DNA of 64,000 bases. Origin: Mercurialis annua. Taxonomy: Eukaryota > Streptophyta > Magnoliopsida > Malpighiales > Euphorbiaceae. The notes below the pieces were generated by a model. It was not told the origin of the DNA, searched no databases, and saw nothing but the letters and a program-made list of their open reading frames with translations. The DNA is taken from positions 15,267,001 to 15,331,000 of the forward strand of contig NC_065573.1 of the NCBI RefSeq assembly GCF_937616625.2, given 5' to 3'. Shown in pieces: positions 7,143 through 44,513 of this stretch. A program made the translations under genes and the position numbers. How positions within the stretch are numbered: position 1 is the stretch's first letter; every line of letters starts with the position of its first letter.

Positions 7143-7186
7143 TTGAATCGAAGAACTCGCAATTAAGCAATGAGATGAGTAACTTA

Positions 7187-7638: not shown

Positions 7639-7700
7639 CCCCAACAACAAACCCTTGAATCTTCTAGAAGAAAACTCAAGTTTGTGCTGAAAAGCACCCT

Positions 7701-12206: not shown

Positions 12207-14809
12207 TGTCACGACCCAAATTATTGAGCCGAGACCGGCGCTAGGGAATGGGAGTGGTAGCTCCGAAACCCGTAGCAAGCCTAAAACCACTATTAATTTT
12301 TCGCAATTGAAAACATATTATTATATATAAAACGTTTTCAGAAAACTCTTTTAAATAATATAATTGTAGATATTAAAATATTATATTAAAGTTTACATTC
12401 AAAACTAATTATTTGAAATCCAAATGTCTATCTAATACTGACATCTACTGACTACTGCAGCTTTAGGAACCCAAACTTGTGCAAGTCTAATGACTTCTGG
12501 CACAGTGGAGATGGTTTGTCTGATCCGACTCTGCTTACCTGCAAACATCAGAGTGAGGGGTCAGTATTTGGGAAAATACTGAGTGAGTTTGCAAGTTACT
12601 TATAGTATTATCAAAATATAGCGTCACACGCTTATTACATATATAAATTCCATACATAATATAAGCACACAGTAAACGTTCCTAATTAACAGACTCTATC
12701 AAAACTCTAATCCTTGATTCGCTAAACTTATATAATCGAATCAACTTGATCCAAATGGTCCAACCCGGGAGTGTTCACACTCGACCACGTCAGTCGCAAC
12801 CAATCTCTTAATCCCAAAGTGTGAGTCCAACTCACTGGTGGGTCCAACCCACTAGATACGGGGCTCAGGTTACTTAACCGAGTTCACTCTCGTGGGGCTC
12901 AGGTTATTTTAACCGAGTTCACTCTCGTATCGCACTCTTATCGTATGCGCATTTCGTAATCTCATAGACAATCTAGACACGCTAGAATGACTTACTGATA
13001 ATCTCGTAGCCTATTGATACTCAATAGGTATTGACTTCTATAGATCTCATACTAGCTATTCATATTTAAACAATGAATACAAGAACGTGCATAATCAAAC
13101 TCATCAAGCACAATATCTTATATGAACAAATCATATAGATACAATGTATATAATAATAACATTCATAATATAAGAAAATGACTTTTATAATAATACGTGA
13201 AAGTAAATTGCCACTCACAGTGACCGCTATCCAAAAACTGCATTATTATAATCCCGCAAGCGTAAGCTCCATGCATTGTCCACTCACGTAACCACTCCGG
13301 CCCAATGGCTTGGTAGCTCGTCGATACGTCAGTTACTTAGTCGAGTTACCTGTACGTTTAATCCATAAACGTAGGCTTAATATCAAAACCCTAAGTTATA
13401 AACTTAGGTTAATATAATCGTAGTTCAAATACGACTTTTAACCTTGATCGTATTCTAATACTTAGTCGAGATACTTGTTATATCTCTTAGTCGTATTCCA
13501 ATACGTATGATACCTTCAAACTTTAGGGTTTAGTTTCATTCCGATGAAGTTTCAAATAGTTTTCAGGACAATGCGCAGGTGCTGCCTGCGCACTGACACT
13601 GTTTAGTAAAACGACGATCTCTCCCAATTGAACCGTTGGATCGAGATAAAATTGGACAGAGGCGTTCCTAAGAGGCAAATCTATAAACTGACCGTAGGGT
13701 TTCTGAATCTGGCAACATTTGGGTAGTGTGCGAACGCACACAATGAGTGTGCGAACGCACACCCCAAAATTCAAGGAGTGTGCGATCGCACACTCAATGT
13801 GTGCGAACGCACACCCTTGACAGCCCCCGGAAAAGTCATTTTCCGGGCGCTGCGCCGCTTTCCGACACTCCCGACATGCTTACGCTTCATTTTAACATAT
13901 AATCCAATCTAAATCTCACCAAAAACGAGTATAGAAACGCGATTACAATTCGTTTAATTCGTTTAAACGAAATAACCCTAATTTACTAATTCTCACAATA
14001 AAAACGTCAAGCTTACCTCGATTTGAAGCTTAACGATGATAGAGAATCGAATTCTGGACGAATCGATATAAAGAACTCGCGATTTGGACGAGAAACGGCG
14101 AAACCGCGACGGAACGTAACGATCGCCATTTCCTTCTTCTGTAACCTTCTGCTCCTTCTTCTTCTTTTCTTAATTCATTTGGTTTCCTTAATATATCATG
14201 GCTAATTAGCCACTTTGATCCTTCATTTCTTTAACTCCAACCAATTCTCTTTTAAACTTTCTAATTTAACCTAACGGTTAAATTATCCTTTTAACTTAAT
14301 TACTTATGTATTATTTATATTCAAATAAATAATACTAATCCATAATTATTATTTCCCGTCAATAATCTTTTAATTACTATTCTCGAGATTTATTTGGCTA
14401 ATTTACATTTTGGCCCTTGAACTTTCCAAAAGTTGCAATTTAGCCCAAAACGTATCCGCGTCCAAATTTTAAAAGGTCTCCGATTGACCCGAAACTTTTA
14501 CCACATATACTATAAAACATTTCGCGGACCTTGGCGAAATAATTTCCATTTTAAGTCATAGTGGCTAAGTTACCACTTTAGTCCCTGTACCTCATTTCGA
14601 GCTTTTCTTGACATTTTTCTTTTCTAATTTCAATTCCAACTCTAGAACTGAAATATAATGTTAGGTCTTTGCTATAATCTCTTTCAAAACCGATCTACTA
14701 AAACTTATTTATCTTATTTTTATCGGAAGACTTTCCGTTATCGTCACTCTGGCGACTCAAAACTGGGCACGTGGTCCAATTAAATACTTAAATATTTTGG
14801 GGTATTACA
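12207..14809 (-). mobile_element. Complete solo LTR of a gypsy-type (Tekay/Del-like) retrotransposon
   Basis: The 2603-bp segment begins TGTCACGACCC and ends GGGGTATTACA on the plus strand, so TGTAATACCCC...GGGTCGTGACA in element orientation. It is flanked by a perfect 5-bp direct repeat, TAACC, at 12202-12206 and 14810-14814. No primer site or internal region follows, so it is a recombination product. It contains a short tandem duplication (GGGCTCAGGTTA..CTCTCGT) near 12855-12930 and the four-dyad array at 13726-13814. Long LTRs with these ends are typical of Tekay/Del chromoviruses; that lineage call is inference. Confidence 0.92.
13726..13814. repeat. Array C: four 16-bp dyads spaced 5-15-5
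   Basis: GTGTGCGAACGCACAC occurs at 13726, 13747 and 13799, and GTGTGCGATCGCACAC at 13778. All four are symmetric (7-bp arms around AA, or a perfect palindrome around AT). Spacers are 5, 15 and 5 bp, so centres are 21, 31 and 21 bp apart, close to two, three and two helical turns. Confidence 0.95.
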
Positions 14810-15358
14810 TAACCGAAATAATTTAATGAATAAACCCGATGTTTATTTTTGGTCCTAACTTAATTTGACTATTCTCATAATTAATTAAAATAATAATATA
14901 ACTAAATGTGTACACAAATATAAATGAGAATACATCATAACAAGAGTTTCATAAATAACATCGTTCTAACAACGAAAAGGTCACAACAAGGAACCAAGTC
15001 CCGTGCCTTTCACATGATCCTTAAATTTTCCTGGTGGCATGCCTTTAGTTAAAGGATCAGCTAACATATTATCAGTACTTATATGCTCAACTACCACTGC
15101 TTTGTCTTTCACACGTTCTCGTATGGCTAAATACTTAATGTCGATATGCTTGCTTCAACTACCACTTTTGTTGTTCTTAGCCATGAAGACAGCAGCTGAA
15201 TTATCACAATCCAATTTGAGCGGTCGATAAATAGAATCCATGATTCTAAGTTTGGGAATGAAACTCTTAATCTATACACCTTGAGGAGTAGCCTCAAAAC
15301 AAGACACGAACTCAGCTTCCATAGTAGAAGTAGTAGTCAAAGTTTGCTTCGCGCTCCT

Positions 15359-15613
15359 CTATGAAACAGCTCCACCAGCCAACATAAAAATATAACCAGA
15401 AGTTGATTTACGTGAATCAACACAGCCAGCAAAATATGAGTCTGAGTAGCCAACCACTTCTAAGTTGCTTGAATGTCTATACATGAGCATGTAGTCTTTA
15501 GTCCCCATAAGGTACCTCAATACCTTCTTTGTAGCTTTCCAATGCTCAATGCCTGGATTACTTTGATATCTCCCCAACATTCCGATAATAAATGTAATAT
15601 CGGGTCTGTGCAA
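15359..15613 (-). pseudogene. RNase H fragment of the second copia element
   Basis: Encodes MHRPDITF..GMLGRYQSNPG, then VVGYSDSYFAGCVDSRKSTSGY, the copia RNase H signature. The following part toward 15000 is broken (the STAEAEF-equivalent region near 15320 is in another frame). It belongs to the same minus-strand element as the RT and integrase pieces. Confidence 0.85.
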
Positions 15614-15619
15614 ACCTGA

Positions 15620-16620
15620 GCATACATTAAGCTTCCAATAATTGAAGCATATGGAATGTTTCTCATTTGTTCCTATTCGAAATCATTTTTCGAACATTGA
15701 TTCAAGTTAAACTTGTCACCTTTCACAATAGGAGCTACACTTGGCGAACAATCTTTCATCTGAAATCTCTCCAAAACTTTGTTGATATATGTCTCTTGAG
15801 ACATACCCAGAGTATAACGAGTTCTGTCACGATGTATCTTAATCCTAATGACATAGATGCATCGCCTAAATCCTTCATATCAAAGTTTTTCGAGAGAAAT
15901 TGTTTCACCTCAAGTATCATATCCATATTGTTACTTGCAAGTAAAATATCATCCACAAATAGAATTAAGAAACAAATCTTGCTCCCACTAATTTTCTCGT
16001 ATACACAACTATCCACAACATTCTCTTCGAAACTGAATGAAGATATAACATCATGAAATTTCAAATACCATTGGCGTGAGGCTTGTTTCAATTCATATAT
16101 TGATTTCTTAAGCTTGCAAACCAAGTGCTCACCGATACTGGAAGGAAATCCTTCTGGTTGTTTCATGTATACCTCTTCCTCCAGTTCTCCATTTAGAAAA
16201 GTTGTTTTCACATCCATTTATTGCAACTCTAAGTCAAAATGTTCAACTAATTCCATGATTATTCGAAGAGAATCTTTCTTTGATACAGGAGAGAATGTCT
16301 CCTTGTAATCAATTCCTTCTTTCTGAGTGACTCTTTTAGCAACGAGTCTAGCCTTGTATCTCTCAATGTTACCTGATGAGTCTTTCTTTGTCTTAAAGAC
16401 CCATTTACACCCTATGGCTTTCTCCCATTTAGGTAACTCAACAAGGTCCTATACCCCGTTTGATGACATAAAATCCATCTCATCATTCATAGCATTATGC
16501 CATAAGCTTGCTTCATTACTACTCATGGCTTGTGAAAATGTCTCGGGATCATTTTTGGCTCCAACATTAAAGTCTGACTCTTGTAGATACACATAGTAGT
16601 CACTAGGTATTGCTGGTCTC
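15620..16620 (-). pseudogene. Reverse transcriptase region of the second copia element, degraded
   Basis: In element order the frame shows ELPKWEKAIGCKWVFKTK, then YKARLVAKRVTQKEGIDY, a TAA codon near 16217, then MDVKTTFLNGELEEEVYMKQPEGF and the polymerase motif FVDDILLASN. A frameshift follows after SLGLRY. The stop replaces a codon just before the conserved QMDVK, so the copy is inactive. Confidence 0.88.
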
Positions 16621-16848
16621 CTTATTCTAGTAGATCTCCTTAAAATTATATCAACATTCTCTTAAGGATCGTGTTGATCAACTAGTTGTTTAGTTATTTG
16701 TGGTTCTTCTTGAACAACTTGATCTACTAGATCAATATCAGCATGTGGAATTTCTTCTTGTCTTTCATTGCCCACTTGAACTTGAGGGGCAATTCTAATA
16801 ATGACTTGATCAATCGACGAGGAAGGTTGGGTACCAACATGACCATTT

Positions 16849-18200
16849 TCAGAAATAGAATCTTGAAATATCCCTCCCACTAATCATATCATTTTTAAGA
16901 AATTTGGCATTTCTTGATTCCACAATCCTAGTGCTATGAGATGGACAATAGAATCTATATCCTTTGGACCGTTCAGCATATCCAATGAAATACCCACTAG
17001 TGGTTCTAGGCTCTAATTTCTTTTCTTGTGGGCTATGCACTCTTACTTTAGAAGGACATCCCCAAATGCGTACATGATGCAAACTATGTTTCCAACCTTT
17101 GAATAATTCAAATGGTGTCTTTGAGACAGCCTTGGTTGGAACTCGGTTTAATATGTACGTTGATGTCTTAAGAGCTTCAGTCCACAAGGTTATTGGGAGT
17201 TCGGCATTACTGCACATACTCCTTACCATCTTTATCAAAGTCCGATTTCTTCTTTCAGTTACACCATTCTCACTAGGAGATCTTGGATTGGTGTATTGAG
17301 CAACTATTCCATGCTCTTGAAGAAACTTAGCAAATGGACCCGGTGTTTGACCACCTTCCGTGTGTCTACCATAATACTTTCCTCCTCTATCAGTCCTCAC
17401 GATCTTGATTTGTTTTTCACATTGTTTCTCTACTTCTGCCTTGAAAACCTTAAAGGCATCAAATGCTTCACTCTTATGATGAAGCAAGTAGACATACATG
17501 TATCGTGAGAAATCATCAATAAAGGTGATAAAGTATTTTGGACCACTTTCTGGACAACAAATATCTGAATGGATGATTTCAAGTAGTTCAGAATTTCTGT
17601 GTGCACCCTTTTTGGATATTTTGGTCTGCTTTCCCTTTATGCAGTCCATACAAATCTCGAAATCAGAAAAATCCAGAGTACCAAGTATTTCATCATTTAC
17701 TAACCTTTTGATTCTATCCTTAGAGATATGTCCTAATCTCCGATGCCACAACATAGAAGATTCTTCATTTTCAACACATCTTTTTATGCCAGCTTTAACA
17801 TAAATAACTGAATTAGCGGTGTTGCTTTGCAAATTAAGCATAAATAGACCATTGGATAAAATTCTATTTCCAATAACATCTGAATTATAAATTAAATTCA
17901 ATGATGATCTTTTATGCAAATTGAAATCAAAACCCAAAGGCAATAATTTAGATATAGAAATTAAATTCCTAGAAAATCCAGGTACATAAAATACATCATG
18001 CAAAGACAAAATAAAACCACTAGACGAAGTAATTTGGCAAGTTCCAACAAATTCAACATCTGAGCGTATTTTGTTTCCTGAATAAATATTCCGCTCACTT
18101 TCCGCAGGTTTGTCATATCCTGCAAAGTTGTTGTAATATGGATTGTAGAACCAGAGTCAATCCACCATGTGTTACAATGAACATCAACCATATTAAACAC
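16849..18200 (-). pseudogene. Protease and integrase region of the second copia element
   Basis: The protease site WWIDSGSTIHIT starts the region at about 18170, with a frame change before the integrase frame (16849-18009). The integrase part has WHRRLGHISKDRI, C..C pair CMDCIKG, the acidic triad in HSDICCP, VRTDRGG and SPSENGVTERRNRTL, and the C-terminal GYFIGYAERSKGYRFYCP segment. The usual GEYYGR is written GKYYGR here. It differs clearly from the element at 1-8127, so this is another copia lineage. Confidence 0.9.
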
Positions 18201-18790
18201 TTGGATTCTTTAGTAATTCCTCCTTTAATGGGCATTTCCCTTTTCCTTTAGGTTTCTTATCACCCTTCTTATTGGTCGTCAATAATACAGTCTCTCCATG
18301 CTCCATCATCAACCGACTTTCCTCCTGAACACACATGGTCAAAAGTTCATTCATGGACCACTTATTTTTATGTATGTTGTAGGATATCCTAAAGGGTCTA
18401 TATTGATGAGGAAGAGTATTCAAAATGTAATGGACCAAAAAAGTGTCAGACATCTCAACCTCTAATGTTTTCAGTTTAGCTACAACGCCCCTCATTTTCA
18501 TGATGTGCTCACGCGCACCTCCGAGACCGGTAAGCTTTAGTAACGAAAACTTTCCAATGAGAGTACTAGAGAGTGACTTGTCTGAAGTTTGGAATTGTTC
18601 ATCAATCGCCATAAGTAAGGATTGAACATCATTATACTTTTCCACTGAACCCCTTAATCTAGCAGATATATTGGTCTTTATGAACATAACGCAGAGACGA
18701 TTGGACCTCTCCCACTTTTCATAAATATCAACATCATCCTGAGTGCTGAATTCATCAACAGGTGGTGGGAGGAAGAGTTGCTGGAAAGTG
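18193..18790 (-). pseudogene. Gag fragment of the second copia element, 5' truncated
   Basis: The frame reads FQQLFLPPPVDEF, WERSNRLCVMFIKTNI, ARLRGSVEKY..VQSLLMAIDEQF, then KLTGLGGAREHIMKMRGVVAKLK and WSMNELLTMCVQEESRL, the gag-polypeptide (UBN2-type) domain of plant copia elements. A Lys/Gly-rich stretch follows where the zinc knuckle should start, but the knuckle is lost. Similarity stops near 18800 and no 5' LTR is seen. Confidence 0.82.
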
Positions 18791-18800
18791 ATTGTAGGAA

Positions 18801-18902
18801 AGAAACTTATGCAGTATTTTATGTGTTTTTATTTCAATTTAAACTCTTTTGTTCATGATACAATTTATGCTTTGGATTTTTAGTTAACGGTTTGTTTACG
18901 TA

Positions 18903-18946
<44 letters not shown>

Positions 18947-21050
18947 TATCTAAGAGTTTCATACCTTTTCATGTTAATTTTATATATTTTGATTAATGAT
19001 GCGCCATATGTACCAATCTAATAAAACAGGTTGGCAATGAAATGCTTTCGGTACCAAATCAACTTTTTATTACGCTCGAGAGAGTGTTAGGAAATGAAAC
19101 CATCGATAAACCATCCCATAATACATTGCAGACTGAATTTTTTTTTAAATTATAAATATTTTTTTTATATAAAATAAGTGTTAATTTATGATACAATGCA
19201 TATACCTCTTTGATATAAAATTTATACATTATAATGTTTATATAAAAATAGATGTATTATTAAAATTATATTTAACATGTATTATTTATGTATTGAAGAT
19301 GTATTATTAAAATTGTATTTAATATATATTATTTGTATATTTTGAGATATAATGTGTATTAATAGTGTATCAAAATGTATTATTTGTGTATTTTGTATGC
19401 ATTATGTGATATCTATTGACATGTTTAGAGCATGTGACATATTTTTTGATTTTAATTATGCTATAGATATTTCAGCTACCCATAAATTTTATATACAATA
19501 TTCAATGCGTTAAATATACAGCTCAGATATAAATTTTGTACATATATGATGTATATTTTATACATATCAGAAATAGCTCAACTGCATTCTCGTTCACATA
19601 TAATTTAATTTATGAGACGTGCGTGAGATGTGTTAAAAGTGTATTTGACAGATATATCATTGATACCTGATGTATACAATTTTTGATATATAATAAATCA
19701 TACATAGTTTTTTAATGTATAATTTATAAATTTTTATAACATTTAACGCATATTTTTTTGATATGATATGCTATAGATACATTTCAGATACACGTCATAT
19801 ATTTTGATAGATATATGGAAAAACAGTGCTCAAAATATGGTAAAAGTATCTTCCATATACATAAAAGATACACATAGTTTTTATTTAATGCTTTTGATAG
19901 GTATATTTAAAATGTATCATACATGTATCGATAAGTATATGAGATGTATCACTTACGCATTTGAAGTATTTATATTGATTCATTATCGCGCTGACATATT
20001 GGCGAACTGACTAACGCGCCTGACATATAAGACGTATCTTTTATTTTTCATTCATCGACAACGTAGTCTTTCTGATTATTTTTTAGAGTTAGTCAACTAA
20101 GTCAAAAAATGCAAGGAAAAAACCTAAACTTGAATTGAGTCATAGTCTTTAAATTTACTATTGTACGAATATTAATAAAAATTATTAATTTATAAAATTC
20201 AATGACTTTATCAATTCAATTTATATAATATTTGTTTCTTCTTTTTTGTTAATTTACTTCATTTAGTATTTTAGACTAAATGAATTTAATTCAAAAGAAT
20301 TATTTGTTTCAAAACTTAAAATAGTAACTAACAAAAGAACAAGAAAAGCATCAAACATGTGATAGAGATACACATTTTTTAAATACATAGGTCGAATCCA
20401 CATTGGAAATAATATATATATTAAATATTTTTTGTAACATAATTTATGTATTTTTAAATATATGTGATACATGTATTTTTTGTTTTAAAATATGTTATAC
20501 ATACACCTTAAAGGCACATAAAATAATGTGTTTGTGTGTATTTGTTTTAAAAATATAAGAAATTGATAATTAAATTTGATCTTGATACATTTCTAATACA
20601 TAACAGATACATAAATGACATGTATTTGAATATTTTTAATACACTGATGCACTCTCCTGATGCATGTGCCAGACGCATGTTAGACGTATTTCTGATGCAT
20701 TTTTGACACATTTTTAACTTTTTTTATTTATTTTGAGTGTGCCATGTGTTGCATCTTCATTGTAAAGGTATAAAATGTAAAGTTTCATTTTTTTTAAATG
20801 CTGATGTTATATTCCAACAATTAGTATTTTTGTTATTTTTTTCCGCTTTTTATATATTTTTGTCATTTTGTTTATTATTTAGGTAAAAAGCTCTAAAAGA
20901 TATTAATGTCCTAAATGAGAGGCGGGTTAGATATTGAGCCAAATTTGTTTGCATAATGTTGAAAATGGAAACTAAAATGAAAAGGGCAGGTAGTGTCATT
21001 TTCCAAAAAGAAGAAGAGTTGGAGGGCAGTTTGGGAAGATAAAAAAGAAA
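18801..21050. other. AT-rich spacer with TA microsatellite and degenerate GTATTAT repeats
   Basis: A (TA)n run occupies about 18908-18942. Around 19251-19345 a 47-bp unit starting GATGTATTATTAAAATT is repeated twice. Many imperfect TGTATTATTTGTGTATT-like and GATACAT-like words follow to 20720. No coding sequence is supported. Confidence 0.6.
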
Positions 21051-21055
21051 GAGGG

Positions 21056-21066
21056 TTTAGGGTTTA
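21056..21066 (+). promoter_or_regulatory. Telo-box upstream of the PPR gene
   Basis: TTTAGGGTTTA (complement of AAACCCTAAA) lies about 110 bp before the start codon. Telo-boxes are common near the transcription start of plant genes for translation and organelle biogenesis. A similar TTTAGGGTTTTA occurs in intron 1 (21364-21375). Confidence 0.55.
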
Positions 21067-21068
21067 AG

Positions 21069-21200
21069 ATGGGTAGTAGCACTGTAGTAGTAGTGTTTCC
21101 ATATTCATATTCATTTTCCACATTTTTGTCTGTGTTTTCTTCTTCTTCTTCTTCTTCTTCACCACAGCTATTCAATGTGGGCTTTACGTCGAGCTTCTAA
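21069..21200 (+). other. Possible upstream ORF overlapping the PPR start codon
   Basis: An ATG at 21069 opens 43 codons in another frame, running through the (TTC)n tract as poly-Ser and ending at TAA 21198-21200, beyond the PPR start at 21175. If transcription begins upstream of 21069, this would compete with the main start. Confidence 0.35.
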
Positions 21201-24200
21201 TCCTTTCAAGTATGTCCTCATCTCTCTTTACCTTCAATATCATCTCATTTTGTTTTGCTTTATTACTGCTGTTTTTCGACGATTTAGGGTTCAAACTTAG
21301 TCTCTTCATTTAGCTTCTTTTTTTGTTGATCTTCGTTTAATTTACTAGTAAAGTGATTTCAACTTTAGGGTTTTATTTAAAAATCGGAGTTAGATTGTAA
21401 ATGTTTTAGTGATTGTTTTATTAATTTGATCATTTCTATATCCAGGTTCCGGGTGTTGAGTTTAGGAGCTTCGCGGGTATGCTGTTCTAACCCGGAGCCA
21501 ATTTCCGGCTGTTCAGAACGCAATTCTGCTGTATTCGAGTCTCTTCAAGCAGCATGTGAGAGATGCAGGTCTTACCACACCTCAAATGTCTGTCCAAGCC
21601 TCTATGTGGCGAGGCGTAGTCTGTCTTCCCAAGCTGGCGCTGAGAGCAGTGAATCAGATGATGACTTGCAGGATGGATTTTCTGAACTGGAAGCACCCGC
21701 CGTTGAAGAGAGCAATTCAGCAGGTGCAAATGAAGAGGAGCTTGTCTCCGAACCTGAGCTTGATGAGGATGTCGATGATAATGAACCTTCTCATGCCTTG
21801 GAAATGCTGGATAACGAAGCTGATTTGGTTGGAAAAACAACTATGAGGAAACGGGTTTCCTCTGAACTGTTTAAGACCATCATTTCTTCTCAAAGTGTGC
21901 CTTTGAATACTATTCTCGATAAGTGGGTGGAAGAAGGAAACGCTCTGGGCCGGTCTGAGCTCTCAACAACTATGCTTAATCTTCGTAAACGTCGAATGTA
22001 TGGAAGGGCCCTACAGGTAGATTGACTTGATGCTTTTCTATCTGCAACTTGTTTTGTTTAGGTGTTATTATATTGTTCTGCTAACTTAGAACCATGGTTT
22101 GCCATCAATTTTACGGTGTTTGCACCTATATCTGTGCAAAAGTGTCGCAAATTATTATGCCTATCCGCTAAGATTCTTTTTTGACATTTTATGACACACT
22201 GCTGTTATTCTCAGTTTAGGCATTTCTGCTTAATACCATAGACCTAAAATGTTTTGTCAGTATTGCTTATAAGATGATTCTTCTAGTTTTTTTTAAAGAT
22301 TTCTCTTGTATTTTTGGGTTATCTCCCAATTAATAAGACTACTCGCCATAATTATTAAAGGCGCGCCTCAGGCGAGAGGCGGCGGGCGATGTCACAAAGG
22401 CGCGCGCCTCAATCGCCTCAGTAGTTGCAAACCTTTTGTATTTACTTATTAATTATGTGTTCTGATAATCTTCCCATGATTTTGTTACTACAATCAGTGT
22501 CATAGTTAGTGATGAGATATAAGATGATTGTTGCATTCAATTCACGAAACCTAGTTTTTATGTTTTGGTATAACCTTCAAAAGTGATATAGACAAAAAAT
22601 ACAAATGTCTGCAATTGTGTTTTTTTTTTTTTGGGAAAAGATCTCTGTGCTCAACTCTCTAGATTCCTTGAAATTGCTTCTGAAGAATTCATTTTGCACT
22701 CTTCCTGGATGTTTTTGTGCAAATTTGTTATATGCAAATATGTGTGATTGATTTGTATCGATTTATTTAGTTTTTAGGCATCTACATTTTTTAAGCTTTT
22801 GCTAGGTTTTCCAGTCAGACTTGGGCATTCATTTTGTTTTAATATTTGTTTAGCTCCACAACCAGCTTTAGCTGAATCTTTTCTACCGTTAGATGCATTA
22901 CAAAAGGTGTTTCTCATTTTCTATTACATTGCATGGTTACCTAGATCACCTGATTCAGGCGTGTGAGGCTTATGTCCTTTTTTTGCTAGGACTTTAGAAG
23001 AAAGAACAGTGTGTTACTTTTTCTTTGTTTATGATCACATGTAAGATTAAGCAATTCACTTCATAGCCGGAATGTTTGGAAGTTATTTTGTTGGCCCTTT
23101 TTTGGTCACTCCAATTTCTTGAATGACTCTGCTCTCGTTAGCATTTTATTTATGTTTTTCTTGCTTTTGCAGCTCTCGGAGTGGTTGGAGGCCAATAAAC
23201 AGCTTGATTTTGGTGAGAGGGATTATGCTTCTCGCCTTGATTTGATTGCAAAGGTACGCGGCCTCCATAAGGCAGAAACCTATATCGAGAAGATCCCACA
23301 ATCTTTCAGAGGGGAAGTAATCTACCGAACACTGTTGGCTAATTGTGTGTCTGCAAACAATGTGAAGAAAGCGGAAGAAGTATTTAACAAGATGAAGGAT
23401 CTTGAGTTTCCAATCACAACATTTGCATGCAACCAGCTGCTGCTTCTGTATAAGAGGCTTGACAAGAAGAAGATAGCGGATGTATTGTTGCTAATGGAGA
23501 AAGAAAATGTTAAGCCTTCTATTTTCACTTACAAAATCTTAATCGACACCAAAGGGCAATCCAATGACTTAGCAGGGATGGATCAAATTGTAGAGACAAT
23601 GAAGGCGGAAGGGATTGAACCTGACATCAACATTCAAGCAATCCTGGCGAAGCACTATGTTACTGGTGGCCTGAAAGAAAAAGCTGAGGCTATTCTGAAA
23701 GAGATGGAAGGAGGAAATTTAAAAGAGCATCGCTGGTCTTGTAGGCTTTTGCTTCCTCTTTATGCTGCGCTTGGAAACGATGATGAAGTAGGGAGAATTT
23801 GGAAGATCTGCGAGTCAAATCCTCGGCTTGAGGAATGCACTGCTGCAATTGAAGCTTGGGGAAAGCTGAAGAAAATTGATGAAGCTGAGGCAGTTTTTGA
23901 TAAGATGCTGGCGACATGGAAGAAGCTCTCTTCTAAGCATTACTCTGCTCTTTTAAAAGTTTATGCAGCCCATAAAATGTTAGCCAAGGGGAAAGATCTG
24001 GTGAAGAAAATGGCAGACAGTGGGTGCCGGATTGGCCCATTGACTTGGGATGCACTAGTGAGGCTTTATGTTGAAGCAGGAGAGGTTGAAAAAGCAGACT
24101 CTTTGTTAAATAAAGCAGCGCAGCAGAACCAGCTGAAGCCAATGTTCAGTTCTTACCTTGCTATTATGGAACAGTACGCAAAGAGGGGCGATGTGCATAA

Positions 24201-25345: not shown

Positions 25346-25351
25346 ATGGAT

Positions 25352-29695: not shown

Positions 29696-29697
<2 letters not shown>

Positions 29698-29761
<64 letters not shown>
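29698..29761. repeat. (TA)n microsatellite
   Basis: About 64 bp of uninterrupted TA repeats lie just beyond the left subterminal region of the outer CACTA element. The Ile/Tyr-rich open frame through it is an artefact. Confidence 0.95.
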
Positions 29762-29765
<4 letters not shown>

Positions 29766-34249: not shown

Positions 34250-35259
34250 CTAAGGCTAAGAGATCAAACGGAGCTCGATTAGTTTCTGCTAGACAAGAAA
34301 TGAGCAAAATCTGTATGCAACTCACTGAACCGTTTTCAAGCCGGAGAGTCGGAAGGATGACACATCTTCTCGTCTTCCATTTCATGTTCGGAGTGCCATG
34401 TCATATGTTTAGTCGTGGCTTTGGAAGCGTTCAACCTTTGCAGCCTTGGAGTTAAAGAGAAATAAAACATTTTTTTATACGGAACGTTAGCCCTTCTTTT
34501 GGCCGAATTTCTTTTCGTAACAGGTTTCCACTGAGGAAATGTACAAACTTTACAATGGGTTAAATCCTCGTCCGCCCCCCAGTAAATCATACAGTTGTGG
34601 AAACAACAATCAATAATCTCGACCAGCAACCCGAGACCTTTCACCAGCTTCTTGATATTAGCAAACATTTTCGGCATTTTGTTGTTCTCTGGAAGCAGTT
34701 CTTGTAATAAACGGCAGGTGTCATCAATCAAAGATATCGAACCCTGATGTCAACACTTAATATCCAAAATTTCCACAGATGCGGACAAGGGTGAGTGTCT
34801 GCTATTTCCGGTCCATATTTCTTCTTCTGCCACACTCATCATATCAAAAAACTTCCGAGCTTCTTCATTCGGGGTCTCTTCCTCAAAAACTTCAGGACCA
34901 GCAGCATCAATAACCATTTTCTGACCGGAGTTTAAATCTCCCCCTCCCTCATTATAATAATCATATTCATTAGCCGGCTGCTGAACAACAGGAGGGACAT
35001 TCACCTCATCGTGGTGAATCCAGACATAGTAATTTGGAATAAACCCAGACTGCAAGACATGTAGTTTCACAACTTCTACATCTCGAAAATTCATATTTCT
35101 ACATTTTGTCCTAGAACATGGCCATTTGATCTCTTCTCCACTCATACACTCGGGATGTTGTACACCAAAATTCACAAACTCTTCAAGATTAGGGAAAATA
35201 TATGGCGGCAGGAAGCCTTTGTCATGCCTCGTATACATCCAACTGCGGTATGGATTCAT
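34250..35259 (-). pseudogene. TNP2-type transposase gene of the outer CACTA, 5' part only
   Basis: The N-terminus MNPYRSWMYTRHDKGF, then GEEIKWPCSRTKCRN and FIPNYYVWIHHDE, is the transposase-associated domain. After an in-frame TGA (34750-34752) the same frame continues with LLQELLPENNKMPK, CCFHNCMIYWG, DLTHCKVCTFPQWKP and YFSLTPRLQRL, the N-terminal half of the TNP2/Transposase_21 domain. A second TGA at 34336-34338 stands where the conserved DSPAW tryptophan should be, followed by a few recognisable residues (KRFSELHTDFA). The catalytic half is missing. Confidence 0.9.
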
Positions 35260-36407
35260 TTCTGAAGGATGTACAATTAGGTACTAGTTCATAAGCTCAA
35301 CGTAGCAAAGTCAATAATTGACTGCTAAAAGGGTAGGGTCCTATCTCATTCGCAAAATTGGCGCCCCATAATTCGATCACGATATATGCATGAATATGGA
35401 AAACATATTCGGCAGCCTTCCGGCGTCGTTCCCCAAGCTCATTTTATAACATAGGGTGTGTAACGCTAATTATATATTCCGTAAGGAATAAGCGTTACAC
35501 ATCCTACATTAAATAATCACCCAGAGAACATACGTCAGAAAACTACCAAATATTTTTCTATCATATCCATACATATATGTTTTCCGTGATCAAATTACGC
35601 AGACTACGACAGTTTTACGAACTGTACACACGTACAATCCCGTGTCGTCCAATCTCTTGAACACACGAGACGTGTTTCTACGGCTAGGTAAGATTTTATT
35701 CGGTGGGAATAAAATATTGTTAATTAAATTTAACTGTTATTGAATTTACTCGAACTAGTTAAAATAAAATACAAAAATGCATTAACACTTACTTGTTTAA
35801 GAGCAGAACCGCAAATGAGAAGACTCCTGAGTATCAACAACAAAATCCTGTAATAAGGGGTTTTTATTAGTTTTTAATATTTTTTTTTTAAAAAAAACGG
35901 CAGCATTTCCCCTAAAAAAAGCATCACCCATTTTTCAGCGAAAAAAAACAATAAAAATTCGAACATAACCAACAAGCCATTTCATCTCAATTTTTTTCTA
36001 ATTAAAAATACTATTAATAAATTATTTAATCAAATGAAACAATTGAATTAATCTAATAAAACATTTAAACTAAATTATAATTAATTTAACCTACTATTCA
36101 TCAATTTAACTAACCTAATCATATATAATATACTTAACTTCAATTTAATTGATTAATAAAATAACCTAATAAAACAAAACAGAACATTATTAATAACGTA
36201 ATAATATTAAATAATAACCAAATTTCTTAAAATATAAACAATTAAAATAATTAATTATTATTTAAAATAATTACATATGAAATTACTAAAAACTAATATT
36301 TCAAACAATTTCAATTTAACCTAATTACAATCTAACCTAATTATAATATAATCCAATACACAACTAAACTTATTAAAATATAATCTAACTAAAAATTAAC
36401 TTAATTT

Positions 36408-36571
36408 TAATAAACCCTAACTAACAATTTACCTAATTTAATTAAACCCTAACTAACAATTAACCTAATTTAATTAAACCCTAAATAACAATTAACCTAA
36501 TTTAATTAAACCCTAACTAACAATTAACCTAATATAATTAAACCCTAATTAACAATTAACCTAATATAATC
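36408..36571. repeat. Five copies of a 32-bp repeat within the CACTA element
   Basis: AAACCCTAA recurs at 36412, 36444, 36476, 36508 and 36540, an exact 32-bp period, each followed by CTAACAATTAACCTAAT-like sequence. It lies upstream of the TNP2 gene. The core equals one plant telomere unit plus two bases. Confidence 0.92.
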
Positions 36572-37620
36572 TAATATCAATAAACCTAATTTTAAATCTA
36601 AAAACCAAATTATAAATCTTATTAAACCCTAATTTAAACCTAATATATAATTTGAAAATAAAATAAATAAAATAAAAATAAGAAATCAAAGAAAACCTTA
36701 CCTTAATTGCAGATGACGGCGGCAGGCGCCTGTGAGCGGACAGCAGCCGGCTGCGTGGGGAGGAGAGGACATAGATGGAGTGGAGCGGGCGGCTGTGAAC
36801 GGATAACGCCGGTGGCGTGAAGAGCGGTGAACGGTGGTCTGAGAGGGAAGGGAGACGGGTGATGGTGGTCTGAGAGGGAAGAGAAAAGGGTCTGAAAAAA
36901 GAAAAGAAAATATAAGGGGGAAGGTCTGCTCGCGCTCGGTTTATTAATTGATATTTAGCGACAGATTCTTAGGTCTTTCGCTAAATATCAAATAATAAAC
37001 CAAACTTAGCGACCGATTTTAGGTCGGTCGCTAAGTTTAAGCCTGAACACTGCTTTTGGACTTAAATTTCGCGACCGACTTTAAATCGGTCGCTAAGTTG
37101 AAGCCCAAATGTTGCGTTTGGGCTTGCCACCATATTTAGCGACGGATTGGCTATGTCCGTCGCTAAATTTTGTACTTTAATTGGCGGGGAAGCTCCCGCC
37201 AATTTTAATTGGGTATTTAGCGATGAATTGGCCTTATCCGTCTCTAAATTTTGATCTAATTGGCGGGGAAGCTCCCGCCAATTTTTATTGGGGATTTGAC
37301 GGAATGGCATTCCGTCGCCAAATCCGTCGGTCATTGACTGAATTAGCGACGAAATGGTCATCTGTCGCTAATTTCGGTCGTTGATCTCATGATTTTTGGT
37401 AGTGAAATGGGTCGCTCAATCCCATCAAATTAATTATAGGTCTGTGATAGGATATGGAAGTTGATGAAAAGAAGGTAAATTGCAAATGCATATTAGACAA
37501 TAATTGTAATCTTGCCCTACACACTACACAATATTTTCAACCCTTGCAAATCCACAAAATTTGCAGAATTCTGTACAATGCACAAGGTTTTGCATTTCAA
37601 CTTTAGATTTTAAAATATGC

Positions 37621-37925
37621 TAAACCCATTTTGGGATGTTAAACTATATGATTTTAGTTTATCTGGTCCCTCATTTTTTATTTGAATTTCTCAGGTTTTT
37701 AAACTTTCACTTTTTGATTTATTGAATCTTTAAATGGATCTCTTTTGGTTCATTAGGTACTTAAACTTTCACTTTTTAGTTTATTGGGTCCTTAAATGGA
37801 TCTCCACTTAAGGACTTAATGAATCAAAAGGAGAAAGTTTAAAGATTTCAAGAAGCCAAATAAAAAATGAGGGACCTTATAAAATAAATTTGTATAGTTT
37901 AGGGACTCCAAAATAGATTTACCCC
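37621..37925. mobile_element. Foldback MITE
   Basis: Long imperfect inverted repeats: ATGTTAAACTATATGATTTTA with GGTCCCTCATTTTTTATTTG on the left, CAAATAAAAAATGAGGGACC and GTATAGTTTAGGGACTCC on the right. Flanks TAAAATA are repeated (37611 and 37926). The centre has a tandem duplication of about 60 bp (TTAAACTTTCACTTTTT). Confidence 0.65.
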
Positions 37926-38244
37926 TAAAATACTAATTTTGCTTATATGTTGCGTACATGCTTTATAACATGACTCGCCAATTTCTATTTGAATTAAATT
38001 CTATATAGTTATTATATGCTACGCACATGTTTTATAACATGACTTGTCAATTTCTATATTAATTAAATTCTATACAGTTATATTAATATTAAATTAATTA
38101 CGATTTTTATTGGAAATAAATACTTCCTCCATGCAATAATTACAGATTTTTTTTAGCTCTTTGAAATTGTACATGGATTATGAAAATGATTTATGATATA
38201 TGCTTTTTTTTACTAACATTTCAAAAATAACTCTTATATTTATT

Positions 38245-38542
38245 AGGCTTAAATGTACCAAAAATCACCAACTTTCGCGTGTTTTTGGTATTTGACACGA
38301 ACTTTAAATTTTGTCATATAAATACACGAACTATCAAAGTTTTGCATATATGACCAAGTTTCCATTTTAGGTGAAAAACGGTGTCGTTTTAGGTATAAAA
38401 CGTTGCCGTTTTAGGTCAAAAACGGTGCCCGTGTTATATATGCAAAAAATTGATAGTTCGAGTATTTATATGCCAAAATTAAAAGTTCGTGTCAAATACC
38501 AAAAACACGCGAAAGTTGGTGATTTTTGGAGCAATTAAGCCT
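38245..38542. mobile_element. Foldback MITE with 7-bp target duplication
   Basis: The left arm begins AGGCTTAAATGTACCAAAAA and the right arm ends with a near-complement (TTTTTGGAGCAATTAAGCCT). ATTTATT is duplicated at 38238-38244 and 38543-38549. The inner part has three copies of AAAACG-TGCCGTTTTAGGT-like words. Confidence 0.78.
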
Positions 38543-38549
38543 ATTTATT

Positions 38550-38635
38550 ATAGTTAGTATATAATTGATAATACCATAAAAGGGTATTTTTGTCAAAAAT
38601 AAATAAATAAGAGCATTTTGAGTATAACTAAAGTA

Positions 38636-38668
<33 letters not shown>

Positions 38669-40030
38669 CTATCCAAAATAGATATTTTTTTATATAATTA
38701 TGGGATGGAGGGAGTATTATACATTAATTTATTAATTTTATAAAATTAATTGACGTAATAACTTTTATTTATAATTTATTATAGTAATTAATTTTTATTA
38801 TAATTTTTTTTTGACAATCGAATAATCTTCCATTAATAATAAAGAGCAGTTACAGGTGTAAGAATTCAGAAAGGGTATAACCGTTTCTAATGACCTGACA
38901 TGGAACAAGATATAAATCTTGATTCGCAGATCGCCTTACAAAATAAAATCAAAATTACATAACTGCTCTAACACAATAAGATCCAATCCTTTTCTGTCTA
39001 ACAGAACACTCACAAACTCTTCATAAAAAACAACAACAAATCTTTCATATAGAAAGAACAGTAAAACTTTCAAAAAGAAAGTCAATCGCTGTAAAATAGT
39101 TATAAAAAAAAACTAATGTAACCTATAACGATTTCATCTTCAATCTTGAAAGTTCTTGATCCATCTCTGATTTTTTATTTATTGAAATTGATGCGCCTCG
39201 TCGATAGATTTACCAATCAAAATGAAAAAGAGTCGGTCATTTATTTTATTCTAAAGCAACAAAAAAGAAATGGCTACCGTCAACGGCAAAAATAAACCAT
39301 TGACGGCAGCCGAAGCGAAAACAAGAGGAGAAACGTTTGACGACTAGGGTTTTCTATTTGAGAGAGAGGGGAGAGGAAAATAAATATAAAGGAAGGAAAT
39401 ATAAATTTTATTATAATTACAAAAATGTATTTTGTGTATAAGTGAAATCAAGAATATTTCAGCTTTTCTCACTTCTTTCGGCGCTAGATAACAACCTGAA
39501 TGTTATTGTACGCCGTCATCAATGGTGAAAAAGTAGGAGAAGAAAGCAACTTCTGATCAAGCTAAGAGAAACAAAGATTAAAATCAATTGATTGATAGAG
39601 GGATTATTAATGAGAAAGAAGTTAATAGAGAAGATTTAGAAAAAAAAGTTTGAGGTAATTATTATATCGCAGAAAGACAAGACCAACCAATAAGATAAGA
39701 GTAATAATGAAGAAAATGGTGATAAGAAGGAAATAACAAGAAGTGGGTGGATCTATTGAAGACTAACATGAATAAGGATTAGGAATTTTATATAAAATAT
39801 ATTTCTCTTGTCAGTAATGATATTTGGGTTGCTGAAGTCTGTCAAAAGGATGCTATCAAAGAAGAAAAACATTTGAATTATGCAATCTTATAATGTATTT
39901 ATGGGTTAATACCATAATTTAACAAATTGCATAACTGTATAAGAAATCGATGTGGAAAGCTAGGGTTTATTGATTTTCATCAAATCAAATCTGGTATATT
40001 TGTCTTTTTTTTTTGACTCTAGAGAAGAAA
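38550..40030. other. Spacer with a TA tract and a T-run, nothing firmly recognised
   Basis: A TA-rich patch is at 38637-38670. The T-run at 38806-38814 could be the tail of a minus-strand retroposon, but no coding remnant was found beside it. Confidence 0.4.
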
Positions 40031-40039
40031 AGTTGAAAG

Positions 40040-40290
40040 CGATGGCAGATGGGCCAATAACCTTCGACAAATGTCCTCTGGTTCTTCAGGAAAGAAATAG
40101 ATGAATGTCCTTTGATTCTACAAAAGTTGCGTCTGTTCTAGTGTGGGTAAAGGTTCCTTTACTTCTATGGGAGTTCTAGAGTCCAAACTCACTAAGTTCC
40201 ATGGCAACACATTAGGAAAACCTGTTTGTTGATAGATGTACAAGAGCGAGAACTAAGCTGGATTATGGAAGGCTGAGGTGGCGGCATATA
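40040..40290 (+). pseudogene. Relic of a LINE ORF1 (DUF4283 type)
   Basis: In shifting frames the sequence gives CPLVLQ, VLVWVKVPLLLWEF, SPNSLSSMATH, GKPVC and DRCTRARTKLDYGRL. This order matches the DUF4283 domain of plant L1 ORF1/zinc-knuckle proteins (VWVKFPxLPLEFW, GKPxxxDxxTxxxxRLDYAR). Stops and frameshifts show it is dead. Confidence 0.6.
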
Positions 40291-40462
40291 ACATCACATT
40301 GCTTCTCTCTAGTGCCCAATTGGATACTTTGCGATGCTGGAATTTAAGGAGACGATTCACGTGCAATCTAGCGAATCATCGAAAGAATAGGAGCCTCCAC
40401 TTGCATACGCTCTATCACATCAGCCTGTCAAAAATGAGAATACAATGAAAAAGTGAGTGACG

Positions 40463-41045
40463 TTACAATCAATATGAAATCGGTAATTTAGTACCATAGA
40501 TATAAAAATTACATAACATAATTAAGCACATGCGCTCCGAGCTCACACCGCTAGGTATCACCCATTTCCGCGTGATTTTTCGAAACCATTCCATGTACTG
40601 AGAATGATATTTATTACGTTCTTGTAGTGGGGGGTCCCTCATAGACATAATCCAACCTACGGTTCCAAAGGTCAATATAGTGAGCATGCGTGTGAGTCTA
40701 GTCGTTACTATTCCTAAGCCTCAAACTATGCACCCTTTGGTCTTGTATAAGTCGGGATGGAATAGGCTTCTACAACCAAACTGTTGCAGTACTCTGTCGG
40801 GCTGGTGCCACTCCACGATATGGAAATAGATGAGCGATACCACTTCCTGCCAATTATGTCGGCCCTCCAAACAGTACGTTGAAATGAATCTGAGTACTTT
40901 GTCACTATACGGCTCCCAAATGATTTGCACCAAAGAAACTGAAGATCATTATAATATCATTGCCCAAAAATATTCAAAACAAAACTGAGGACATAATTTA
41001 AATAATGCGCATGTGGATGACTTACAATGCGTGTCTCGGGACCTA
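40463..41045 (-). pseudogene. Plant mobile domain (PMD/MAIN-like) pseudogene fragment
   Basis: In element order the frames give IWEPYSDKVLRFISTYCLEGRHNWQEVVSLIYF, HIVEWHQPDRVLQQFGC, then HAHYIDLWNRRLDYV and HSQYMEWFRKITRKWV. This is the conserved C-terminal half of the plant mobile domain, known from MAIN/MAIL proteins and from many transposon-borne copies. Frame changes near 40720 and the missing N-terminal half indicate a pseudogene. A Mutator-like element lies about 1 kb upstream. Confidence 0.72.
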
Positions 41046-41588
41046 TCTGCTATCCATATGCCCCCTATATGTAAAATTTCAAATTTTAACATATTACTAA
41101 CATCCCGAACAATAAATAATCGAGCAACATTGAAGTTGTATAAAAAATAAAAAGTGTGGGTCTTTGGTCTCCGTCTCTCTCACTAGGGCCATGATTATGC
41201 ATGTTGATACTGTAATATCACATACGAATGACTCTGGATAGTTCTGTATGTATGATAGAGATGTTGCATGCGAATGTCCAACTCATGGAAGTCCATAAGG
41301 GAATGCCCCGTAGTACTACGTGATGTCAATCCCCTAATGTCGTTTTGCACATAATTAAAGAAAAGAACGTTATATACACTTTGCATTCCTTTAAACTGAA
41401 TAAAGGTATTCATAATAGTTATTTTACCTCGCCATCCCAAATAGTCTGAAATCTATGATCATTATGTGCATGCAAAACAATGTCAAACTCAGGTAGGAAA
41501 GCTGCCATATCTGCATGTGAGAATGATGACAAATAAAAATTACATAAAAAGAATAGTCTACTATTTATTCATTCATTCAATGACAACA

Positions 41589-42059
41589 CTAACTTTTATC
41601 ATAAACAATACTGTATTTATAATGCCGCACTGCAAAAACATTTATTACATAAAAAAGTAGGGGGTTACAATTTTCATTACATAACATGTGTTTAACAGCG
41701 TTTTGGCAACCAAAGTCACCTGAATCACTACAGTCAACATCAGCTATAATAGTAGAATCATAAGAAATTGTAGTTGCTTGGTATCCAAAAATATTGTCAA
41801 TGCCAGGCTTGTTATGGAAAAGCTGCAATTTTTGGATCGTGACTTTAATTTACTTTCTCAAATGCTCCATTATAGCCTCAATTTTTGGAATCAGATTTTC
41901 TTCGACATGTTGCCAAAATTTCTTAGGGAATATTATGTCACGAAATTCACAATATGCCTCTAGCTCGCATCTAATTTCCCACAACCTTGACCGCTGAGTC
42001 TCACTTGATATAAAAGCATCTACAAAAATCATGCTTATGTTGTGAGTGATGGCCAACAA
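41589..42059 (-). pseudogene. Unrecognised degraded ORF
   Basis: One frame of about 155 codons with a single TAA (41850-41852) runs FVDAFISSETQRSRLWEI, IIFPKKFWQHVEENLIPKI, then LQLFHNKPGIDNIFGYQ and an Asp/Ser-rich end. I do not recognise the family. Its upstream side is cut by the foldback element whose target duplication is 42058-42066, so the 5' part may be on the far side of that insertion. Confidence 0.3.
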
Positions 42060-42066
42060 ATATATG

Positions 42067-42716
42067 GGGTTTTTGACGGATTTGTTCCTACGGAATTAAA
42101 GAAATTCCAATTTTATGCCTGTCTTAAAAAAAAATCCAATTTAGTGTCTGGGCCCACCCAATTCGCATTCTTAAAATGCGGATTGGGTGAGCCATCCGCA
42201 TTCAACGAAAGTGGATTAATGATAAGCAGCAATCCGCAATATAAGAATGCGGATTGTATGCAAACTATTTGATAAAAATAGTGTTTCAGTCCTTAACTTA
42301 AACCAATAATTTATTGATTCCGTCTTATTTTTGTCTTTATTATCAATATGAATTATGGTTAATATTTTTTTCAATTCTTTATTTCTTTAACATACATAAT
42401 TTTTCATACAAACTTTTTTTAACTTAATGATCAAATATTCGATTAAACTCAATTACTTAGTATTATTTACGTGTAAAATTAATTTATAGGTGTCTTACAA
42501 AGTAGATCGTAATTATAGAAATTTAAAATAAAAATTTGAGAGTTTAAATTTTAATAATCGGTTTTAAACGGAACAAATGAAGTTTAGAGGGTAAATATAT
42601 TAAAAATTAATATATCAATGTACATCTCTAAATGTAGATTTAAAAGTTTCGGATAAAATCTCAAAATTAAAATGTCAAAATTTGAAAGTTTCGACCTAAT
42701 ATGAAAGTATATAAGT

Positions 42717-42778
<62 letters not shown>

Positions 42779-43570
42779 GTGTAATAAATAAATAAAAAGG
42801 AAAAAAGGTTCAATTTAAGGATTATGATGAGGGAAGGAAGTTTAGGTATTAAATTGAACCTTTTTTTCCTTTTTATTTATTTATTATATATTTATAAATA
42901 TAATTTTTATATATTTATTAACTTATATACTTTTATATTACGTCGAAACTTCCAAATTTTGACATTTTAATTTCGAGGTTTTATCCCAAATTTTTAAATC
43001 TACATTTAGAGATGTATATTGATATTAATTTTTAATATATTTACCCTCTAAACTTCATTTGTTCAGTTTAAAATCGATTATTAAAATTTAAATTCTCAAA
43101 TTTAAATTTTAAATTTCTATAATTATGACCTATTTTGTAAGACACCTATAAATTAATTTTACACGTAAATAATATGTAAGTAATTGAGTTTAATCGAATA
43201 TTTGATCATTAAGTTAAACAAAGTTTGTATGAAAAATTATGTAAGTTAAAGAAATGAAGGATTGAAAAAATTATTAACCATATTTCATATTGATAATAAA
43301 GACAAAAATAAGAAGGAATCAGTAAATTATTGGTTTAAATTAAGGACTGAAACACTATTTTTACCAAATAGTTTGCATACAATCCGCATTCTTATATTGC
43401 GGATTGCTGCTTATCATTGATCCGCTTTCGTTCAATGCGGATGGCTCACCCAATCCGCATTTTAAGAATGCGGATTGGGTGGGCCCAGGCACAAAATTGA
43501 AATTTTTTTTAAGACAGACACAAAATTGAAATTTTTTTAAATTTCGTAGGAATAAATTCGTTAAAAACCC
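42067..43570. mobile_element. Mutator-like foldback element, 1.5 kb, 9-bp target duplication
   Basis: The two halves are long inverted repeats of about 650-700 bp: the left begins GGGTTTTTGACGGATTTGTT and the right ends with CGTTAAAAACCC, and blocks such as GCATTCTTAAAATGCGGATT, CAATCCGCAATATAAGAATG and AGTGTTTCAGTCCTTAA reappear complemented on the right. The centre has a (TA)n run at 42718-42775 and a short palindromic GGTTCAATTTAA..TTAAATTGAACC. AAATATATG is perfectly duplicated at 42058-42066 and 43571-43579. There is no coding sequence. Confidence 0.93.
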
Positions 43571-44037
43571 AAATATATGGAGGCCCCCTTGAAAAAAATA
43601 TTTGGAATGTAATCGAGCCTAATGGTTGATCAAGTGAATGGACTTCACTTGACTGGACTGGATATTGAAGGTTGACCAAGTGAATGGACTTTACTTGATC
43701 GAATATGGTATTTAAGGCTGGCCTAATAGGATGTTTTTTTATAAAAAAAAATTATTTTGAAAACTAGAAAAGTTGTTAGGCCTCACCTAAGACTGAGGTG
43801 AAACTGGATATTTTGAAAAAACGGATTCATAATTCTTACATTAACATCATGCCTCAAATATAGACATTATATTGGTATTTTCTTAGAGGATAACGTCTAA
43901 GCTGGAATGCATGTAGGTTGAGTCGATGGGTATTGGTAGTAATTGGTTTAAGGTCCCCACAAACAAATATACCTTTAATAGGTCTCCTCAATCACGAGTA
44001 CAAGCGACCAAGGTACTGTGCTGTTAGTGATGTACTC
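43571..44037. other. Spacer with a short direct repeat
   Basis: A TTGA(T/C)CAAGTGAATGGACTT word recurs about 45 bp apart near 43625 and 43672. No gene is recognised. Confidence 0.4.
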
Positions 44038-44214
44038 TGATAGGAGTAGAACTACTCCTATTTTGCAGGTCTATTTGTAGCATTTTATAATGAGTTTGTA
44101 TGCTTTTCGAGTCACATGTTGCTTATTTTTATATCAAAGTGTTTGAGGTGCAAAACGAGGAAATATAGGAAAACGCTAAGCTGAAAAGCAGTGGGAGGAA
44201 TCAAAGAGCTAGCC

Positions 44215-44303
44215 CGTCTCGATCAAGACAGAGTGTGTTTCGATCGAAACACACCCAAAAAAGGCTTTTCTCGATCGAGACAAGCTGTGTTTCAATCGAG
44301 ACA
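44215..44303. repeat. Array D: four 16-bp dyads spaced 5-15-5
   Basis: Sites at 44215 (CGTCTCGATCAAGACA), 44236 (TGTTTCGATCGAAACA, perfect), 44267 (TTTCTCGATCGAGACA) and 44288 (TGTTTCAATCGAGACA). Spacers are 5, 15 and 5 bp, centres 21, 31 and 21 bp apart, identical to array C although the dyad sequence differs. It lies about 200 bp upstream of the TATA box. Confidence 0.93.
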
Positions 44304-44503: not shown

Positions 44504-44513
44504 CTATATAAGG
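44504..44513 (+). promoter_or_regulatory. LTR TATA box of the Athila-like element
   Basis: CTATATAAGG, in the middle of the LTR, where U3 meets R is expected. Confidence 0.65.

Follow-up and report, generated by a model that had tools for sequence, protein, structure and literature searches.

In a 64,000-nucleotide stretch of the Mercurialis annua genome (NCBI RefSeq assembly GCF_937616625.2, contig NC_065573.1, positions 15,267,001 to 15,331,000; hereafter the window, whose coordinates are used throughout), two long terminal repeats (LTRs) of different retrotransposon families each carry four short palindromic dyads of 16 bp. We refer to these sets as array C, in an LTR of Del/Tekay type, and array D, in an LTR of Athila type. 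Two further arrays, A and B, belong to a copia element of Sirevirus type at the beginning of the window. The positions of the arrays and of the features around them are collected in the table.

Two four-dyad arrays with one layout

The dyads of array C are nearly identical to one another and have 7, 7, 8 and 7 matched pairs out of 8; their centres read AA in three cases and AT in one, giving the cores CGAACG or CGATCG. Array D is less regular (6, 8, 7 and 6 matched pairs out of 8), its outer dyads being imperfect. The letters that the initial annotation cited for D, TGTTTCGATCGAAACA, are those of its second dyad only, the first and third being of the TCTCGATCGAGA type. The layout reported there was recovered both by eye and by script: dyad centres are separated by 21, 31 and 21 bp, and spacers measure 5, 15 and 5 bp, in C and in D alike.

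We searched the window for quads of dyads with at least 6/8 matched pairs in each dyad, a sum of at least 27/32, a G+C content of at least 0.3 and gaps of 16–60. Six quads passed, at two places only: one at D and five overlapping ones at C, which also draw on a fifth dyad near 13836. Dinucleotide shuffling of the window, repeated 200 times, gave 6 quads in 5 shuffles, none of them with the 21/31/21 geometry. Chance is ruled out by these shuffles as the source of the layout, as the initial annotation had supposed. Arrays A and B, which were found separately, fail the quad threshold.

Table. Coordinates of the dyad arrays, their carriers and associated features in the window
Feature	Position	Strand	Remarks
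Array C: four GTGTGCG-NN-CGCACAC dyads	13726..13814	-	In Del/Tekay-type LTR; direct reading and script
Array C, dyads 1 to 4	13726-13741, 13747-13762, 13778-13793, 13799-13814		
Array C, dyad centres	13733, 13754, 13785, 13806		Base left of axis
Array D: four TYTCGATCGARA-type dyads	44215..44303	+	In Athila-type LTR; direct reading and script
Array D, dyads 1 to 4	44215-44230, 44236-44251, 44267-44282, 44288-44303		
Array D, dyad centres	44222, 44243, 44274, 44295		Base left of axis
Two copies of two-dyad unit in array D	44217..44303	+	52-bp period
Del/Tekay-type LTR with array C	12770..14809	-	Starts TGTAATACCCC at 14809; lower boundary approximate
Homologous sister LTR	8190..9929	-	Starts TGTAATACCCC at 9929; lower boundary approximate
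Dyad pair of sister LTR	9064..9099	-	Counterparts of dyads 3 and 4 of C; centre gap 20
Fifth, different dyad, GGAAAA-NNNN-TTTTCC	13829..13844	-	Centre 30 bp past fourth dyad of C
TATA box (TATATAAGG)	44505..44513	+	~200 bp downstream of array D
Retrotrans_gag (PF03732) fragment	46151..46504	+	1.7e-9; downstream of LTR with array D
Copia gag and pol	1893..7199	-	RVT_2, Retrotran_gag_2, rve; element ~1-8000
CAATTGGTATCAGAGC, 16-bp Sirevirus 5′ LTR/primer-binding junction	7187..7202	-	Exact match
Array B: eight ATCNCG-NN-CGNGAT dyads	7700..7980	-	In 5′ LTR
TATA box (TATAAATA)	7630..7637	-	~60 bp downstream of array B
Array A: eight ATCNCG-NN-CGNGAT dyads	1436..1681	-	Between pol and extra open reading frame
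TATA box (TATAAAAA)	1327..1334	-	~100 bp downstream of array A
Extra open reading frame behind array A	1..1191	-	Cut by window edge; Pfam ATHILA ORF-1 match

Retrotransposons that carry the arrays

The LTR with array C has a homologous sister (~8190-9931) in the same orientation, to which it is 74–83% identical in three blocks. Its U3 end, TGTAATACCC, is one change away from TGTAACACCC, given in the available text of Cruz et al. (2014; PMC4029996) as the commonest U3 end of Del elements in maize and sorghum. Judged by this end, the C-bearing LTR probably belongs to the Del lineage; the lineage names used here for the carriers of C and D are tentative and come from end motif and gag match, not from reverse transcriptase. 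The initial annotation had described a solo Tekay/Del-like LTR: the U3 end agrees with the lineage, but solo status is not established, a homologous LTR being present in the same orientation. The stretch between the two (9900-12800) holds no minus-strand reading frame longer than 85 amino acids.

The sister LTR keeps a dyad pair at about two helical turns, not the exact 21 bp or the four-dyad form. Only two CG-NN-CG dyads are found at this place, with centres at 9071 and 9091 and a 4-bp spacer where C has 5 bp. The GGAAAA-NNNN-TTTTCC dyad next to array C also has a counterpart in the sister (9114-9129), likewise 30 bp from the last CG-NN-CG dyad.

The gag fragment that follows the LTR of array D is of the Ty3/gypsy type (PF03732), and the copia gags of the window match PF14223 instead. 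A sequence near 45383 resembles what we take to be an Athila-type primer site. Upstream of array D, a 1.5-kb stretch that matches its reverse complement at about 87% identity forms a long inverted repeat (42051-43585) that is possibly a foldback element.

Arrays A and B lie in an element with copia-type gag and pol. The Sirevirus 5′ LTR/primer-binding-site junction, CA-ATTGG-TATCAGAGC in the available text of Bousios et al. (2010; PMC2829016), occurs in it exactly (7202-7187, minus strand). Dyad centres are separated by 20, 112, 20, 50, 21, 20 and 23 bp in array B and by 20, 50, 20, 51, 20, 50 and 20 bp in array A, from which a further weak match at 635 was dropped (three mismatches, 3/8 pairs, 808 bp away). 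Array A is followed by an open reading frame (ORF) of at least 397 codons that matches ATHILA ORF-1 (3.2e-9). Together with its TATA box, the array looks like an internal promoter of an envelope-like gene, a designation taken from the position of the ORF. The TATA scan also gave an extra match within array A, at 1666. A homologue search with the ORF returned 1503 candidates, none at 1e-10. The ATHILA ORF-1 domain, otherwise named after a gypsy family, here sits in a copia element of Sirevirus type. Sireviruses carry multiple polypurine tracts of the form AGGGGGAG ahead of the 3′ LTR; this octamer has its sole window copy at 34945, outside the element, whose 3′ LTR lies beyond the window.

Common core, pair spacing and possible descent of the arrays

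When all arrays are pooled, 24 of 26 dyads have CG-NN-CG at the centre. The core is present in 16/16 Sirevirus dyads, 6/6 Del-type dyads and 2/4 dyads of D, where the cores are CGATCG (twice), CGATCA and CAATCG, the latter two each being one CpG-to-CpA change off. Arms are family-specific, with GTGTG in C and TCT or TTT in D. The initial annotation held that the two arrays share their layout and not their letters. The layout is indeed identical and the arms differ, but because the CG-NN-CG core is common to all arrays, the letters of C and D are not independent. CpG density is 7.9–9.3 per 100 bases in arrays A to D versus 2.4 in the window.

Short gaps between neighbouring dyads are similarly uniform, at 20–21 bp in 13 of 14 cases over the three retrotransposon families of the window, the remaining gap being 23. 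A search for neighbouring CGNNCG sites at 20–21 bp found eleven, where 300 shuffles had 0.04 on average and never more than 2; many of the eleven duplicate one another, and the shuffles do not keep CpG clustering. The two-turn step is the robust part of the layout. As fixed numbers, 5-15-5 spacers and 21-31-21 gaps do not hold: the Del-type sister has 20, and in the Sirevirus arrays 20 and 50 prevail.

In the Sirevirus-type element, the seven exact 6-nucleotide pair spacers (B's short gaps of 21 and 23 being left out) have a mean pairwise identity of 0.44 versus 0.80 for the 16 dyads. The spacers between pairs measure 36–37 nucleotides in four of five cases; among these four, one pair is alike, with a score of 0.76 per base, and the remaining five comparisons give 0.34–0.42, values reported with no shuffled baseline. 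The expectation that spacing is held while spacer letters drift is largely borne out, in this element alone.

Duplication accounts for part of array D. At a 52-bp shift its half-units are identical in 31/36 aligned columns, and because D is largely a duplicated two-dyad unit, its second 21-bp gap is not independent. Array C bears similar traces, in that its third dyad and third spacer can be aligned to the first of each if 2-bp indels are allowed, and part of array A is tandem (71-bp shift, 79% identical). One could then suppose that a two-dyad unit born by slippage was duplicated neutrally, the repeated 21 being automatic and the rest a functionless coincidence. Such a process would not produce identical gaps of 21 and 31 in two families, nor would it account for 50–51 over three kinds of unlike Sirevirus spacer or for the shared CG-NN-CG core; we consider it very improbable. 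The earlier statement that simple duplication does not easily explain the arrays is thus to be narrowed: part of D is a duplication, and the same 21 and 31 in two families remain.

Another way to reach the same 21-31-21 geometry twice would be descent of both arrays from one ancestral cassette, moved from one LTR family to another through recombination or template switching, with arm letters diverging later. The spacers and near flanks of C and D are alike when gaps are allowed (GAGTGTG...CACACCC(C)AAAA...AAGG), with a score of 39; 300 plain shuffles averaged 19.6 and reached 34 at most. When dyads were kept, the gapped score was reached by 10/2000 pooled and 38/2000 within-spacer shuffles. 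Since the spacers are more alike than expected once gaps are allowed, a common origin of the C and D arrays is possible. The likeness, however, needs 3-bp gaps on either side of a central block, so the two arrays do not match in register, and identity anchored on the dyads is only 1/5, 6/15 and 0/5 for the three spacers. In addition, the long gap differs in the Sirevirus arrays, and the two LTR stretches match each other weakly (best E 0.009). We regard the transfer of a cassette as an unlikely explanation.

Other parts of the window hold a broken second copia element on the minus strand (15756-18687), with gag, integrase and reverse-transcriptase pieces; a scan of the window for CG-NN-CG clusters found none near it. 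At 37002-37125 there are tandem 62-bp units with GCGACCGA/TCGGTCGC inverted repeats, in which CGNNCG gaps are 15, 47 and 15. A PPR gene and plant-type retrotransposons are also present, as suits DNA of plant origin.

Candidate binding sites for dimeric factors

We estimate at roughly 0.5 the probability that C and D are promoter-associated binding arrays for dimeric factors, paired about two helical turns apart. Each palindrome would be the site of one protein dimer, and dimers on neighbouring palindromes, at a distance of about two turns, would work together as a pair. The half-sites TGTGCG, TYTCG and ATCNCG would be recognised by one dimeric factor of the host or by several related ones. A two-turn distance could allow cooperative contact on one DNA face, CpGs within the dyads could render binding methylation-sensitive, and the array would drive transcription as long as the element escapes silencing. 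In C and D, the 31-bp step from one pair to the next may represent a further permitted spacing or a remnant of common ancestry. Of the five arrays, three (A, B and D, but neither C nor the sister pair) have a TATA-box sequence about 60–200 bp downstream, and one of these TATA-linked arrays, A, precedes a separate ORF rather than gag.

A number of observations weigh against this interpretation. The gypsy-type material comprises two LTR families only, with one array each and one reduced copy, and in that copy, the Del-type sister, there are only two dyads and the gap is 20, not 21. Array B is not cleanly paired, since its last four dyads form a run with gaps of 21, 20 and 23 bp, and two of its pairs stand 112 bp apart. 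The 6-nucleotide Sirevirus spacers (0.44) are still more alike than shuffled ones (0.27). No TATAWA is found within 500 bp downstream of array C, the nearest being at 13189, and one lies upstream at 14319. Given this placement, array C may fall within the transcribed portion of its LTR, and a simple upstream-enhancer reading of C is weakened. Nor does one helical repeat serve all arrays. The phase score of C and D peaks at 10.4 bp per turn (1.00, with 0.12 for A), that of A at 10.1 bp per turn (0.97, with 0.87 for C and D) and that of B, scored with six of its eight dyads, at 10.2 (0.85). A repeat common to all arrays does not fit these differing peaks. The initial annotation had placed the sites on one face of the helix; C and D fit at 10.4, but because the best pitch differs between arrays, a single face holds only array by array.

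The last point of this kind is the predicted folding of the arrays as RNA. Long hairpins are formed by C (-72.5 kcal/mol, z -11.3) and D (-45.3 kcal/mol, z -5.95), and two tested parts of A fold at z -9.1 and z -5.0; for C, D and each tested part of A, 0/200 shuffles were as good. The 5-15-5 symmetry would let the two outer dyads (1 and 4) pair with each other and the two inner ones (2 and 3) likewise, so that the arrays could act as RNA, in long hairpins feeding small-RNA silencing, a role that has been suggested for the palindromes of maize Sireviruses. Spacer 1 of array C compared with spacer 3 agrees in 0/5 letters in direct register and in 4/5 as reverse complement, which speaks for such pairing, and a small-RNA excess is described for maize Sirevirus palindrome clusters in the available text of PMC10760457. 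Spacers 1 and 3 of D, on the other hand, match as complements in only 2/5. The tested part of B (7830-7973) barely beats shuffles (z -1.5, 18/200 as good) and the Del-type sister pair is without a fold (z -0.6, 50/200 as good), yet the core and near two-turn gaps are preserved in each of them.

Compensatory changes between arms are also absent from the 16 Sirevirus dyads. CG-NN-CG is invariant in them, as is T at -6 with A at +6, and position ±4 is Watson–Crick in 6, G–T in 4 and of neither kind in the other 6. For positions 2 to 8, Watson–Crick pairs number 86/112 versus 84.9 expected when right halves are redealt. An RNA structure kept by covariation is rejected on these dyads, which have no excess pairing between arms; the Del-type dyads (39/42 versus 39.0, n = 6) and those of D (23/28 versus 22.0, n = 4) vary too little to judge. 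The lack of covariation between arms fits half-sites that would be recognised singly and not as a stem. The core and the near two-turn gaps persist in more arrays than the fold does, which favours a protein dimer recognising half-sites. A role as RNA is possible in some arrays; that the arrays in general act in this way seems unlikely to us.

The nearest known counterparts are the repeated motifs (RM) of Sireviruses, which in the available text of Bousios et al. (2010; PMC2829016) are located in the LTR upstream of the TATA box and again before the envelope-like gene. Arrays A and B match them closely in their short CpG-rich dyads, in their placing (eight dyads in the LTR and eight before the envelope-like ORF with the ATHILA ORF-1 match) and in the TATA box downstream. 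Their core is mostly CG-CC-CG rather than the CGG-CCG of RM, to which the same text notes one exception, Tnd-1. Arrays C and D resemble RM in being palindromic dyads repeated in an LTR. They differ in having CG-NN-CG and not CGG-CCG at the core, four dyads per LTR (only LTRs being counted) instead of at least eight per element, and strict pair spacing, the spacing of RM not being described in that text. Their carriers, moreover, look like Ty3/gypsy elements (D by its PF03732 gag, C by the Del-type LTR end alone) and not like Ty1/copia Sireviruses. As far as the available text goes, RM are absent from classic retrotransposons, meaning Ty1/copia, its dataset description names no Ty3/gypsy element, and no common binding factor could be named for the palindromes.

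Other comparisons were less close. The maize Sirevirus palindrome clusters, according to the available text of PMC10760457, share with the present arrays strong predicted RNA structure inside LTRs, but in the window the capacity to fold is not retained by every array. Del LTRs contain CpG islands, and the LTR of C likewise has CpG-rich stretches; in the available text of Cruz et al. (PMC4029996), however, 'no CpG island' predominates in the cluster with eudicot elements, and a term search of that text for 'palindrom', 'tandem repeat' and 'inverted' found none. Among the literature matches listed, as represented by their available text, none reported paired spacing or described arrays of this kind in the LTRs of Del or Athila, and a text search for the dyad letters gave only matches unrelated by title and abstract. 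The pattern search for arrays found 0 stretches in viral contigs, where two protein queries gave 3 stretches each by pattern, none confirmed. In genome contigs it found one Rhodobacteraceae record, a 21-bp direct repeat of TGTGCGACCGCACAAGGCGCA and not a plant array. The repeat units of this record (contig L001:3390-3424) contain the dyad TGTGCGACCGCACA, at a spacing that the scan pattern required.

It is conceivable, though on balance doubtful, that Sirevirus, gypsy Del and gypsy Athila elements share one grammar, in which CG-NN-CG dyads would come in pairs at a two-turn distance, the next pairs lying three or five turns away; one factor family would read them, and only the outer arm letters would be specific to an element family. 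The paired layout in two Ty3/gypsy-type families would make a Sirevirus feature a general rule. A dyad pair at 21 bp would be an exact DNA bait for finding the factor, and silencing at these sites by CpG methylation or small RNAs would become testable.

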